IMG/VR virus record: IMGVR_UViG_3300037961_005106
Coordinates: 1-64,000 of that record
Source: a virus
DNA length: 64,000 nt
Reading direction: 5' to 3' (one strand)
Numbering within the stretch: the stretch's first letter is position 1; each line of letters begins with the position of its first letter. Made by a program: the position numbers and the translations under genes. Of the stretch, positions 31,185 to 39,633 are shown piece after piece. The notes under the pieces were generated by a model, which was given only the letters and a program-made list of their open reading frames with translations, made no database searches and was not told the DNA's origin.

Positions 31185-31283
31185 GATGGATTGATTTGGT
31201 CTAGGATAAAGGAACGTTCACCTCAGTGCGAGGCGCAATTCACTAGGCAAGGAACGGGGCCTAGGCTTTAGCGGAGAACTCTC
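31185..31283. promoter_or_regulatory. Divergent regulatory region, L1-like variant
   Basis: Separates the AlpA-like gene (minus) from a DUF4278-like gene (plus). It has CTAGG-type ends (GTCTAGG near 31199, CCTAGGC near 31260) and a direct repeat TAGGATAAAGGAAC / TAGGCAAGGAAC, but lacks the GTAAGTCC block, so I treat it as a possible relative of L1 or an operator for the AlpA-like protein. Confidence 0.4.
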
Positions 31284-33174: not shown

Positions 33175-33262
33175 TGGTAGGAGTGGCGAGACTTGAACTC
33201 GCACGGCCATAGTGGCCCACAGATTTTAAGTCTGATGTGTCTACCGATTCCACCACACTCCC
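33175..33262 (-). tRNA. tRNA-Leu (anticodon UAA)
   Basis: 88 nt on the minus strand including an encoded CCA. Acceptor GGGAGTG pairs with CACTCCT (first pair G-U), the D arm, anticodon loop CTTAAAA (anticodon TAA), a long variable arm as expected for Leu, and a T arm with GTTCAAGTC. The anticodon reads UUA codons (UUG by wobble), frequent in AT-rich phage genes. It is the only tRNA seen and lies 3 nt downstream of an L1 element. Confidence 0.93.
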
Positions 33263-36529: not shown

Positions 36530-36592
36530 GTAGTTATAGTTACAATTTAGTTGTAAAGAGATGCATACAATTACTACAGTTGAATTAATAGA

Positions 36593-37033: not shown

Positions 37034-37085
37034 GTGCAGGAGTGAGTCCTGCAGAAAACCCCCGAAGGGGCTTAGTGCAGAAGTC
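37034..37085 (-). promoter_or_regulatory. Leader element L2, copy 1
   Basis: Minus reading: TTCTGCACTAAG, a CCCCTTCGGGG hairpin, TTTTCTGCAGGACTC and a TGCAGGA/TCCTGCA stem. Begins just after the upstream stop (37084). Confidence 0.65.
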
Positions 37086-37410
37086 ATTTAGACATAAGAC
37101 TTTCTAGGTATTCACGTTCAAGGCAAATACCGTAGTTGTAGTAGTCTTTCATCTCTTCCCATAGATCTTTAACCCTGGTAGGCATCTCCATCAATGTACG
37201 AACATCGATGTCAATCCATTCATAGTTACCATCGAAGTTTGGCGTTGCAACGATGCCCCACTTTTGGAAGTGAAGCTGTGTTGATTCACCACCGTACCAA
37301 GCGATACGATAGATACGTTTGTCAGCATCGACAGGACGATCAGGTTGATAGATAAGAAGATCACGTTTGATAGACGGCCAGGTGGATGGGTCGTCAGTGT
37401 ATTCAGTCAT
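37084..37410 (-). CDS. Conserved small phage protein
   Basis: 108 residues. RIYRIAWYGGESTQLHFQKWG then WIDIDVRTLMEMPTRVKDLWEEM. Beta-then-helix; acidic. No domain recognised. Led by L2 copy 2. Confidence 0.62.
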   Translation of the reverse strand: MTEYTDDPSTWPSIKRDLLIYQPDRPVDADKRIYRIAWYGGESTQLHFQKWGIVATPNFDGNYEWIDIDVRTLMEMPTRVKDLWEEMKDYYNYGICLEREYLESLMSK

Positions 37411-37435: not shown

Positions 37436-37487
37436 ACAGGATGTAGAGTCCTGCAGAGAAGGGCCGAAGCCCCTCAGTGCAGAAGTC
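37436..37487 (-). promoter_or_regulatory. Leader element L2, copy 2
   Basis: Minus reading: CTTCTGCACTGAG, then GGGGCTTCGGCCC hairpin (the stem is inverted relative to copy 1 but still pairs around TTCG), then TTCTCTGCAGGACTC. Lies between the stop at 37491 and ATG 37410. Confidence 0.65.
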
Positions 37488-37490
37488 AGG

Positions 37491-37880: not shown

Positions 37881-38246
37881 TCAGGAAACAATAGATGCTT
37901 CAACAACTACTGCTTCAACATCTGGAGCACCATGGTGGCGTGTGTGTGCTTGTTGATACTTCACTTCACGCTCATCACGTGAGCGCTTATAGGTATCACC
38001 CTGTTCTGCTGAGCAGGTATGCACGTTGCCACGGGCACTGACATAGATGTAACAGTTATGTTCTTGTGACCACTGACCTTGATGATAAGCAAGGGCTTCA
38101 TCGTTGTACTCATAACCGAACTTGACGGTATGAGTTTTCTTGAAGCCATCCTCATCTGTCCAACAGGCTGAGAGCCTGGTGAGACGATCAGCTTCTTCTT
38201 CGATCATCTGGATGGAAGGAACCATCAGTCGCAATGCGTTAAGCAT
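37881..38246 (-). CDS. Protein of unknown function in L3 operon
   Basis: 121 residues from ATG 38246 (MLNALRLMVPSIQMIEEEADR); longer frames run into the leader element. Beta region CWTDEDGFKKTHTVKFGYEY, HNCYIYVSARGNVHTCSA and a basic helix. Last gene of a four-gene set linked by L3 elements. Confidence 0.6.
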   Translation of the reverse strand: MLNALRLMVPSIQMIEEEADRLTRLSACWTDEDGFKKTHTVKFGYEYNDEALAYHQGQWSQEHNCYIYVSARGNVHTCSAEQGDTYKRSRDEREVKYQQAHTRHHGAPDVEAVVVEASIVS

Positions 38247-38265
38247 GAGTTGCGTTGAGTTGTGT

Positions 38266-38340
38266 GGTGCCCATCTCCACTGAGGGCAATAACTGGACCA
38301 GGGTTTGCACCTGGTCACCCGCTTTAACGGATCAGCTAAG
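38266..38340 (-). promoter_or_regulatory. Leader element L3, copy 1
   Basis: Three adjacent hairpins: TGCCC/GGGCA (38268-38288), ACCAGG/CCTGGT around a 7-nt loop (38297-38315), CCG/CGG around CTTTAA (38319-38330). It fills the gap between the stop at 38332 and ATG 38246. Confidence 0.68.
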
Positions 38341-38565
38341 CAGCTTGATTGCATACTTGGCAATCTCTGCTGCATGTTCCCTGGTTAGTACCTGGGAGTG
38401 TCCGTCCTCCATCAGATTTCTAATCTGTTGGAAGACAATCTCGCCAGACTCTTCACGAGTAGGAACGTGAGTTTCCTCACGAAGGCGAGTGGGTAACCCC
38501 ATCTCTTGTGCTGCCATCGCATCAGGCGATGTAGCGTAAAGAGCGGAGTTGGTGTAGTTGGTCAC
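38332..38565 (-). CDS. Small protein with GLPTR motif
   Basis: 77 residues from GTG 38565, chosen because AGGAG lies 7 nt upstream and because upstream in-frame ATG lies inside element L3 copy 2. Contains EMGLPTRLREE and a helical, acidic C-terminal half ending EIAKYAIKLLS. Shares GLPTR with the next gene. Confidence 0.58.
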   Translation of the reverse strand: MTNYTNSALYATSPDAMAAQEMGLPTRLREETHVPTREESGEIVFQQIRNLMEDGHSQVLTREHAAEIAKYAIKLLS

Positions 38566-38585
38566 AGGTATTCTCCTGTGTGTGC

Positions 38586-38661
38586 AGTGCCTATCTCTGC
38601 TGGAGGCAATAACTGTCAGGGGCATTGAACCCCTGATGCCAGCCTTTACTGGTCAGCTAAG
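38586..38661 (-). promoter_or_regulatory. Leader element L3, copy 2
   Basis: Hairpins TGCCT/AGGCA (38588-38608), TCAGGGG/CCCCTGA around CATTGAA (38616-38636), CCAG/CTGG around CCTTTA (38639-38652). Stems differ in sequence from copy 1 but keep pairing. Confidence 0.68.
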
Positions 38662-38837
38662 GCAGCTAACTCTGCACGAGTTGGCAGTCCGGCTTCAATG
38701 TCAATTAAATCCTGTTCGCATTCAATGACAGTGTCACCCCCGTAGACGTACGGAGGCTGACCATCTTTCTCAGCCATCTCATTGAGAGTGGTTGGAAAGG
38801 TAAGGTCATAACCGGGAACCTTGTTGTTGGTGCTCAC
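38646..38837 (-). CDS. Small acidic protein with GLPTR motif
   Basis: 63 residues from GTG 38837, with AGGAG upstream. YVYGGDTVIECEQDLIDIEAGLPTRAELAALADQ is acidic and helical. Function unknown. Third gene of the L3 set in map order. Confidence 0.58.
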   Translation of the reverse strand: MSTNNKVPGYDLTFPTTLNEMAEKDGQPPYVYGGDTVIECEQDLIDIEAGLPTRAELAALADQ

Positions 38838-38856
38838 AGGTAACTCCTGCGTGTGC

Positions 38857-38930
38857 GGTACCCATCTCCGCTGTGGGTAAGAAGTGCCAGGGGGATTGCA
38901 CCCCTGGTCCCGCTTTAACGGATCACTTGT
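38857..38930 (-). promoter_or_regulatory. Leader element L3, copy 3
   Basis: Hairpins TACCCA/TGGGTA (38859-38879), CCAGGGG/CCCCTGG around GATTGCA (38887-38907), CCG/CGG around CTTTAA (38910-38921). It follows the stop at 38923 and precedes GTG 38837. Confidence 0.68.
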
Positions 38931-39090
38931 TAAGCAGTTGCTGGTACCAACGGCGAGCCATAGCAACACTGCAACGTGCTTGTTGATCTCTTCCTTGCTG
39001 TCCTTTACGGACAAGCTTGGATACAAGTGCTTGATCTCCTTTGATCTCAAAGAAGTAAACAGCTTGTTTAGTCTCAAGTGCGTAAGACAT
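38923..39090 (-). CDS. Small basic protein, first gene of L3 operon
   Basis: 55 residues (MSYALETKQAVYFFEIKGDQ ... ARCSVAMARRWYQQLLNK). Basic, helical C-terminus. Preceded by TTCCATTCACTTCAACATC, the pyrimidine/CAA leader typical of this block. No domain recognised. Confidence 0.58.
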   Translation of the reverse strand: MSYALETKQAVYFFEIKGDQALVSKLVRKGQQGRDQQARCSVAMARRWYQQLLNK

Positions 39091-39633
39091 GATGTTGAAG
39101 TGAATGGAACGTTGCTACGTTTAACGTCCAGCTTGACGGTTGTTGATCGCTACAATCTTTCTTGGACTTCAGCGCTAGAGAGCGCGAAATAACGAGTAAA
39201 AGGCGGCAAACAACAGATGGAAAGACTGTTTTCCACAGGATTGTGGATTAATTACTGAGTTTTCCACATGACAATTGAATTATTGTCTGTGAAATTCACA
39301 CTGTCCTCCTGACTTCCCACCCAATTCATTCCTTTCATATATACAAAGGCCCACCCTTATTTTTTTTCTATACGCATTCGCAGTCGGACAACGTGTGTGA
39401 GGAGTGTTAGGTAATTATTAACCCATTTCGGGTAAAAAGTTGGCGTTTTAAACAAAAAATAGGTTGCACAAAAAGTCGTCGTTTAGGTATCCCCCTGGTA
39501 ATAATTAGCCCAAACTTTTGTTATTAAAAACTATTGTTTTAATTTACTAATATAACTTTTCATATAAAATTTTGTAGCCCAAAACGTCGTCAAAACTGAC
39601 GTTTACCCCAAACAATTACCCCAAAGTTGCGGG
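39091..39633. other. Gene-free region, candidate replication origin
   Basis: 543 bp without a supported gene. It holds two perfect TTTTCCACA boxes (39229-39237, 39260-39268) and an inverse TGTGGATTA (39242-39250) between them, matching the cyanobacterial DnaA box. AT-rich DNA follows (39340-39570). Repeats on the minus strand: GTTTTGGGCTAC (39574-39585), GTTTGGGCTAA (39505-39515) and two TTTGGGGTAA 13 nt apart (39603-39625), related to the array at 11.3 kb. Origin and/or early promoter region inferred. Confidence 0.65.
39229..39268. other. Cluster of three DnaA boxes
   Basis: TTTTCCACA, TGTGGATTA (inverse, TAATCCACA) and TTTTCCACA within 40 bp. Suggests recruitment of host DnaA. Confidence 0.65.

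Follow-up and report, generated by a model that had tools for sequence, protein, structure and literature searches.

The locus and its intergenic module

The locus lies within a virus record of 79,234 bases, of which the first 64,000 nucleotides were analysed (the window), and it covers the first four genes (g1 to g4) of a leftward operon. The genes, and the RNA of all three copies of the module described here, are on the minus strand (Table 1). No Pfam or PHROG family was matched by g1 or by g2; g3 gave only weak matches to families in these collections, at E 0.14 or worse, and g4, compared with both, only weak PHROG matches, at E 0.09 or worse.

An initial annotation of this DNA had described a three-hairpin module with copies in the three gaps of a four-gene operon. 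These positions are confirmed, each copy spanning its gap and also containing the stop codon of the upstream gene. The conserved loops reported there are real but were given as reverse complements, ATCTCYRCTG corresponding to CAGYRGAGAT in hairpin C, NTTGNA to the T-loop and CTTTAA to TTAAAG in hairpin A, and the paired C stems (TGCCC/GGGCA, TGCCT/AGGCA and TACCCA/TGGGTA) are correct. The hairpins themselves also exist, but A and B are better described as two arms of a tRNA-like three-way junction closed by a 5-bp helix, P1, which encloses both and which had not been recognised; the same applies to a second helix overlapping C and to a hairpin carrying an SD-like sequence and the start codon in copies 2 and 3.

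Read 5' to 3' on the minus strand, the module consists of the 5' strand of P1, which contains or just precedes the upstream stop codon, a D-like hairpin, the T-arm (a stem of 7 bp closed by a loop of 7 nt), the 3' strand of P1 directly abutting the T-arm, N-U-U, the overlapping helices S1 and S2 and, in copies 2 and 3 but not in copy 1, the SD/start-codon hairpin. By coordinates, P1 ends 45, 46 and 45 nt before the following start codon in the window copies. Each downstream gene has a reading frame that extends back, without a stop, across most or all of the preceding module (minus strand, 38646-39077, 38332-38625 and 37881-38375), an arrangement that might permit a frameshift or fusion.

Table 1. 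Features of the locus in the window, with positions on the 64,000-nucleotide stretch
Feature	Positions	Strand	Details
g1	38923..39090	-	55 aa; TGA stop 38925-38923 inside copy 3
Copy 3, tRNA-like core with 1-nt and 6-nt flanks	38876..38929	-	Covariance model E 1.3e-22 (training-set member), pair covariation, fold
Copy 3, P1	38928-38924 / 38886-38882	-	
Copy 3, D-like arm	38921-38919 / 38912-38910	-	CCG, loop UUAAAG, CGG
Copy 3, T-arm	38907-38901 / 38893-38887	-	7-nt T-loop UGCAAUC 38900-38894
Copy 3, overlapping helices	38855..38878	-	S1 ACCC 38878-38875 / GGGU 38863-38860; S2 GCGG 38871-38868 / CCGC 38858-38855
Hairpin D of g2	38835..38849	-	CAGG AGUUA CCUG; SD-like AGGAG in 5' arm and loop; GTG start 38837-38835 begins at last base of 3' arm
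g2	38646..38837	-	63 aa; GTG start; TAA stop 38648-38646 in D-loop of copy 2
Copy 2, tRNA-like core, variant type	38605..38659	-	Covariance model E 1.5e-9 (outside training set), elbow comparison, fold
Copy 2, P1	38658-38654 / 38615-38611	-	
Copy 2, D-like arm		-	CCAG, loop UAAAGG, CUGG
Copy 2, T-arm	38636-38630 / 38622-38616	-	T-loop UUCAAUG
Copy 2, helices	38584..38607	-	S1 GCCU 38607-38604 / AGGC 38592-38589; S2 GCAG 38600-38597 / CUGC 38587-38584
Hairpin D of g3	38563..38580	-	CACAGG AGAAUA CCUGUG; GTG start 38565-38563 paired in 3' arm
g3	38332..38565	-	77 aa; GTG start; TGA stop 38334-38332 inside copy 1
Copy 1, tRNA-like core	38285..38338	-	Covariance model E 4.7e-25 (training-set member), fold
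Copy 1, P1	38337-38333 / 38295-38291	-	
Copy 1, D-like arm		-	CCG, loop UUAAAG, CGG
Copy 1, T-arm	38316-38310 / 38302-38296	-	T-loop UGCAAAC 38309-38303
Copy 1, helices	38264..38287	-	S1 GCCC 38287-38284 / GGGC 38272-38269; S2 GUGG 38280-38277 / CCAC 38267-38264
g4	37881..38246	-	121 aa; ATG start; comes after copy 1
tRNA-Leu (taa)	33175-33262	-	CCA encoded

Other motifs occur in the same region. An intergenic repeat, CTRGGC...GTAAGTCCYAG, is found between small genes on the minus strand of the window (near 36530, and at 35640-35580, 34925-34890, 33895-33855, 33300-33262 and 30750-30718), one copy lying directly before the tRNA-Leu gene, and also in the cyanophage S-EIV1 (L003, about 4030-3990 and 3340-3280); it is probably the repeat termed L1 in the initial annotation. 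A hairpin-like repeat, CTGCAC...GGGGCTTCGGCCC...CTGCAG, with two copies that are 81% alike (37446-37488 and 37044-37086, minus strand), is probably that termed L2. The Rfam Glutamine-II riboswitch is matched on the plus strand at 31212-31265, with 43.4 bits (gathering score 33), and the repeats TTTTCCACA and TGTGGATTA at 39228-39284, which look like DnaA boxes, adjoin the start of the leftward operon.

A tRNA-like core

A covariance-model search, of the kind that had been suggested for the repeat, located the module at exactly three places in the window (Table 1), copies 1 and 3 being in the training set of the model and copy 2 (38605-38659) outside it. A scan made without the model, for a 12-bp helix with a T-loop, gave four minus-strand matches, three of which are the window copies, and five shuffles per strand yielded 0-1. 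Folding energy alone is moderately unusual, with z values of -1.75 to -3.59 for the window copies.

Judged from sequence comparison, the core of the module is almost certainly a tRNA mimic that dispenses with the anticodon arm, in which P1 and the T-arm make up a stack of 12 bp, split as 5+7 or 6+6, accompanied by a D-like arm and by a T-loop resembling that of tRNA. The stack was assessed in 212 of 223 pattern elements, the other 11 lying too close to an end: 208 pair at 10 or more of the 12 positions, the remaining four being chance matches in bacterial genomes, and 138 fit the 5+7 and 61 the 6+6 arrangement. Because the split was optimised for each element this count is a favourable one, and the point at which pairing stops provides a fairer test. 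Pairing in the two classes (n = 103 and 29) stays at 98-100% over helix positions 1-11; at position 12 it drops to 81% and 45%, respectively, and one position further, at 13, to 18% and 3%. No pair of the stack is weaker than pair 12 (+1/72), which is usually A-U rather than G-C.

In a set of 68 distinct sequences, pairs are kept in 96.3% of cells, as against 33-51% when the partners are slid, and both partners are substituted in 11 of the 15 pairs, with a covariation score of 0.672 compared with at most 0.154 for slid partners. The three D-arm pairs are invariant in this set, being part of the search pattern. The same fold was returned by RNAalifold without any target structure. The choice between UGA and UAA as stop codon is compensated in P1, where the column pair 6-45 is G-C in 42 cases and A-U in 16. 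The main D-arm sequence, CCGUYAAAGCGG, varies much less than would be needed if shape alone were the signal, though it too belonged to the search pattern.

The common form has no anticodon arm. Only in rare long forms (L219, L227 and L040) does a third hairpin, variable in sequence or size, stand where tRNA has its anticodon arm, which suggests a continuum between tRNA and the mimic. ARAGORN, a tRNA gene finder, did not call the modules as tRNAs.

The elbow

The contact between D-loop and T-loop is usually thought to be almost fixed in tRNA, where it consists of G18-U55 and G19-C56; the modules co-vary at the equivalent nucleotides of the two loops. Among 25 distinct D-loop/T-loop classes, which are not independent lineages so that the shuffle figures are not exact probabilities, the 19-56 pair is Watson-Crick in 24 (G-C in 19, A-U in four and U-A in one), a result reached by one of 50,000 shuffles, and 18-55 is G-U or A-G in 20, reached by five of 50,000. 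These classes come from a second parse requiring Watson-Crick stems and loops beginning with U; a first parse, in which the D-stem could be extended by G-U, gave 23 of 31 for 19-56 and 22 of 31 for 18-55. Twelve of the 88 entries could not be parsed and stand outside the 25 classes. In most of them no hairpin could be parsed in the D segment, which in every such case contains GG and goes with a UUC T-loop; the others are a gut copy with an irregular stem (L214:1519) and misplaced P1 matches.

A T-loop with UGC goes with a D-loop mostly ending in AG or CG, and one with UUC goes with GG in the D segment. Window copies 1 and 3 are of the AG/UGC type and copy 2, with GG in its D-loop and UUC in its T-loop as in tRNA, of the GG/UUC type. 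Four rarer types alter both sides (UCAAAA with UGU, UUCAAAU with UGA, UCAAACA with UGU and UAAAGA with UUU). Moreover, D-arms have been exchanged wholesale, some replacements being stemless, with the T-arm and the GG/UUC pairing kept. The strongest evidence for the elbow is provided by the modules found by covariance model or by shape and not by the D-arm pattern. Natural variants of the contact (A19-U56, U19-A56 and A18-G55) thus become available.

Strong conservation of the D-arm and T-loop sequences would also be expected of a riboswitch aptamer for a small ligand, and the T-loop GGUGCAAACC resembles loops of cobalamin-type or other riboswitches. Such an aptamer is nevertheless highly improbable: an unrelated sequence can replace the D-arm at the same kind of site, several copies occupy consecutive gaps, the neighbouring genes differ and no Rfam riboswitch matched at the module in the loci searched. 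A cobalamin-type or other riboswitch was rejected as a candidate, since Rfam searches with thresholds of E 10 for the window and E 1 for seven distant loci returned no match at the module. The interchangeable D-arms that preserve the elbow speak for tRNA mimicry, as far as the compared sequences can tell, over a ligand-binding switch. The common RNA-level switch or processing signal proposed in the initial annotation is a fair reading and is partly supported: a covarying fold is common to the copies and recurs in unrelated phages.

Occurrence of the fold in phages

At the level of the locus, the cyanophage S-EIV1 (KJ410740, 79,178 bases) is the only named phage showing similarity; what matches there is the intergenic module, within a group of small genes that run leftward. 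Two modules are present in S-EIV1. Three further BLAST searches for named phages, with distant modules as queries, returned S-EIV1 alone or nothing. A 16-base pattern occurs in at least 119 stretches of viral contigs, and a T-arm with at least six of seven pairs accompanies 132 of 140 occurrences of TCCGTYAAAGCGGG among the matches listed, although the pattern itself is silent on the T-arm stem. Two of the eight misses, L127 and L131, carry the fold with the 6+6 split. A second class, with one extra base between the arms, occurs mostly in short contigs of cyanophage type, and further scans gave copies with a UAA stop and the matching change in P1. The spacing between arm A and the T-loop is strict, since alternative spacings are nearly matchless (0 matches for 4-7 nt, one for 10-13 nt and 0 for a 6-N pattern). 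Swapping the hairpin-A stem, with H/D replacing G/C, also gave 0 matches. The covariance model R1 matches, at E <= 0.01, 38 of 38 records with one to four copies each, the records having been chosen since they had yielded loci.

S-EIV1-like, T7-like and phi29-like phages all have the fold, as does a gut phage-like contig. The last (G033) carries four copies in about 1.7 kb, with anti-repressor and reverse-transcriptase phage families nearby; a contig from a Clostridia bin encodes a phi29-type terminase and DNA polymerase, another (G024) encodes a T7-like RNA polymerase, and the cyanopodovirus S-CBP2 has one copy. A weak and doubtful model match (L221 2016-2071, minus strand, E 0.014) shows the D-loop UUCAAG and an odd T-loop. 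A motif, GGGGCTGCGCATC...CGCAG, common to L003 (about 6650-6600) and L217 (about 340-360) and located upstream of early genes, is possibly a decayed tRNA-like piece.

A scan of genome contigs gave eight stretches, of which L125, L127, L128 and L131 have the fold and L126, L129, L130 and L132 do not. Scans of 398 and 292 genomes yielded only the two centre genomes and three weak matches without a proper T-arm that were judged false. Host genomes seem to lack the module, according to these two scans, in which stricter filters and a model built on the commoner type were applied to sets other than a cyanobacterial one.

Recent duplication without structure, under which related phages would not conserve the fold, is ruled out by the covariation and the distant homologues, and the fold, whose presence in relatives had been named beforehand as support for the module, recurs in unrelated phages. 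Near-identical modules could also serve as linkers that permit gene exchange by homologous recombination, the RNA fold being secondary, and one identical 47-nt core does precede 12 different predicted N-termini (from crude start calls, some of them false, representing at least five different genes). This explanation is quite improbable, given that the stems are often altered, which would hinder recombination, and that the compensatory changes and the elbow pair point to selection at the RNA level.

The stop codon and the downstream part

When the end of the longest upstream ORF (30 aa or more) was located for 140 distinct modules, the stop codon was found immediately ahead of UCC in 80, one position before that in seven, in the D-loop in 23, mostly of one cyanopodovirus-like family, and elsewhere in 23, with none found in seven; 110 of the 140 thus have it within P1 or the D-loop. 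In the gut copies it is outside the mimic. In the copies compared, therefore, the overlap is a strong habit of cyanophage modules and not required by the fold.

The bases that follow the stack are a near-invariant A-U-U (A73 in 119, U74 in 135 and U75 in 137 of 138 modules), a few distant copies having other bases there, and none of the 138 has CC at positions 74-75. Downstream, among 37 distinct type I copies of fixed length, S1 is fully paired in 36 and S2 in 37, and 0 of 5,000 shuffles reach either figure. As the two helices overlap they must be alternatives or form a strained pseudoknot; the latter, with both present simultaneously, is unlikely, as S1 would have to be spanned by only 0-1 nt. 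Of 82 type I copies, 45 possess a perfect hairpin that holds an SD-like sequence together with the start codon and whose pairing follows the codon, GUG meeting CAC and AUG meeting CAU; the other 37, including window copy 1, lack it. In types II and III, which keep the mimic, a plain hairpin takes the place of S2 and the SD hairpin. A small upstream ORF in hairpin C was considered and dropped, many copies having AUA instead of AUG.

These features could belong to a translation element, the bacterial counterpart of intergenic-region IRES logic, in which the mimic would act on the just-terminated ribosome, either binding to a tRNA site or refolding once the ribosome has passed, and would determine, together with the S1/S2 switch and the SD/start hairpin, whether the next gene is re-initiated or insulated. 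The stop codon in P1 or the D-loop, the compensation of the UGA/UAA choice, the covariation of both overlapping helices and the sequestering of SD and start codon in over half of the type I copies all agree with it. We nevertheless consider it rather unlikely, given that types II and III retain the mimic without S2 and the SD hairpin, that the gut copies have their stop codons outside the mimic and that genome compaction would also predict the overlap. Our preferred reading is that the mimic directs cleavage of the message.

A proposed role in message processing

The fold at phage gene ends is probably a signal telling the tRNA-processing enzymes of the host where to cut the message. RNase P prefers a G1-C72 pair, which is rare in the modules, position +1 being G in 15 of 105 of the first class and one of 33 of the second. 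Enzymes that read tRNA by shape have been described as measuring from the elbow along the acceptor/T stack, and RNase P as measuring this stack and cleaving tRNA-like non-tRNAs (PMC4919913). RNase Z is reported to contact the T-arm and acceptor stem, with D-arm and anticodon loop dispensable, and to cut just after the discriminator, where cytidines repress it (PMC7479834). The modules have the form of such a substrate: after the acceptor/T-arm minihelix comes a single unpaired base, and CC does not follow it. The absence of CCA is not the habit of this genome, since the phage's own tRNA-Leu encodes it.

On this basis, the mimic would fold when the ribosome leaves the stop codon and would then bind those host enzymes that gauge tRNA along the acceptor/T stack, starting at the elbow. 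RNase Z is the most likely of these and would cut after the discriminator-like A, between A and UU. The upstream message would keep its stop codon and gain a tRNA-like 3' end, and the downstream message would begin with a short 5' tail and a hairpin (S1 or S2), followed by its own SD/start hairpin. RNase P might cut on the 5' side of P1; since this would often remove the upstream stop codon, the enzyme is ranked second. The spread of the module over different phage types is as expected if a universal host enzyme reads it. The A-U-U, directly preceding hairpin S1, could also be part of another signal.

Instead of marking a cut, the compact fold might protect mRNA, by blocking exonucleases or by forming a protected 3' end after cleavage elsewhere, and so set the stability of each early message. 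All three gaps do contain a stable fold followed by a further hairpin, but a plain hairpin would be enough and a tRNA elbow would be a needless constraint, making this explanation improbable. For cleavage, the whole chain of argument, in which the mimic punctuates polycistronic phage mRNA and is cut by host tRNA enzymes, RNase Z being the likeliest, is put forward tentatively and falls just short of an even chance. Somewhat more doubtfully, the modules may represent a phage-specific, host-independent class of mimics that embeds the stop codon and uses host tRNA maturation to split early mRNA into single-gene messages, in full a tRNA punctuation of DNA phages, coupled to termination and a start-codon hairpin, in several unrelated phage types. 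The module therefore raises testable questions as to whether host RNase Z or RNase P processes phage messages and whether ribosome termination gates the cut.

Relationship to known systems

No match at the module was found in Rfam 15 for the window or the other loci searched, the covariance models of YrlA and tmRNA included, and no description of the module was found among open-licence PMC papers, although one elsewhere is possible. T4-type PeSL cassettes are recurrent intergenic hairpins linked with gene shuffling, combining an early promoter with a stem-loop; they resemble the module as recurrent intergenic cassettes, whereas the module is an RNA tRNA mimic at stop codons. The SAS and ESAS elements of cluster K mycobacteriophages are likewise short repeats upstream of translation starts in phage operons, SAS being a 13-bp sequence and ESAS an imperfect 17-bp inverted repeat, and as described there they have neither a tRNA-like fold nor an embedded stop codon, unlike the module (PMC3203893). 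The 13-bp cluster K sequence GGGATAGGAGCCC at the start site was not found in the module sequences inspected.

The module shares with the tRNAs that punctuate mitochondrial transcripts its 12-bp acceptor/T stack, T-loop, 18-55 and 19-56 contacts and intergenic location, but differs in its length of about 47 nt, in the lack of an anticodon arm in the common form and in having no encoded CCA. The RNA mascRNA, derived from MALAT1, belongs among non-tRNAs read by tRNA enzymes. Others are the phage C4 antisense RNA, which is cleaved by RNase P, and plant-virus tRNA-like structures (PMC11143913, PMC4919913). All of these are single elements, whereas the modules form arrays between consecutive phage genes and their cleavage is putative. 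The tRNA-like domains of YrlA, a bacterial Y RNA, and of tmRNA are likewise described as mimicking tRNA with D, T and acceptor-like parts (PMC8394870), but YrlA is an Rsr-binding RNA and tmRNA the product of a gene of its own, while the module is a repeated part of mRNA that overlaps stop codons. Mimicry of tRNA, well known from eukaryotic RNA viruses, tmRNA and Y RNAs, recurs here as a repeated module of phage mRNA.
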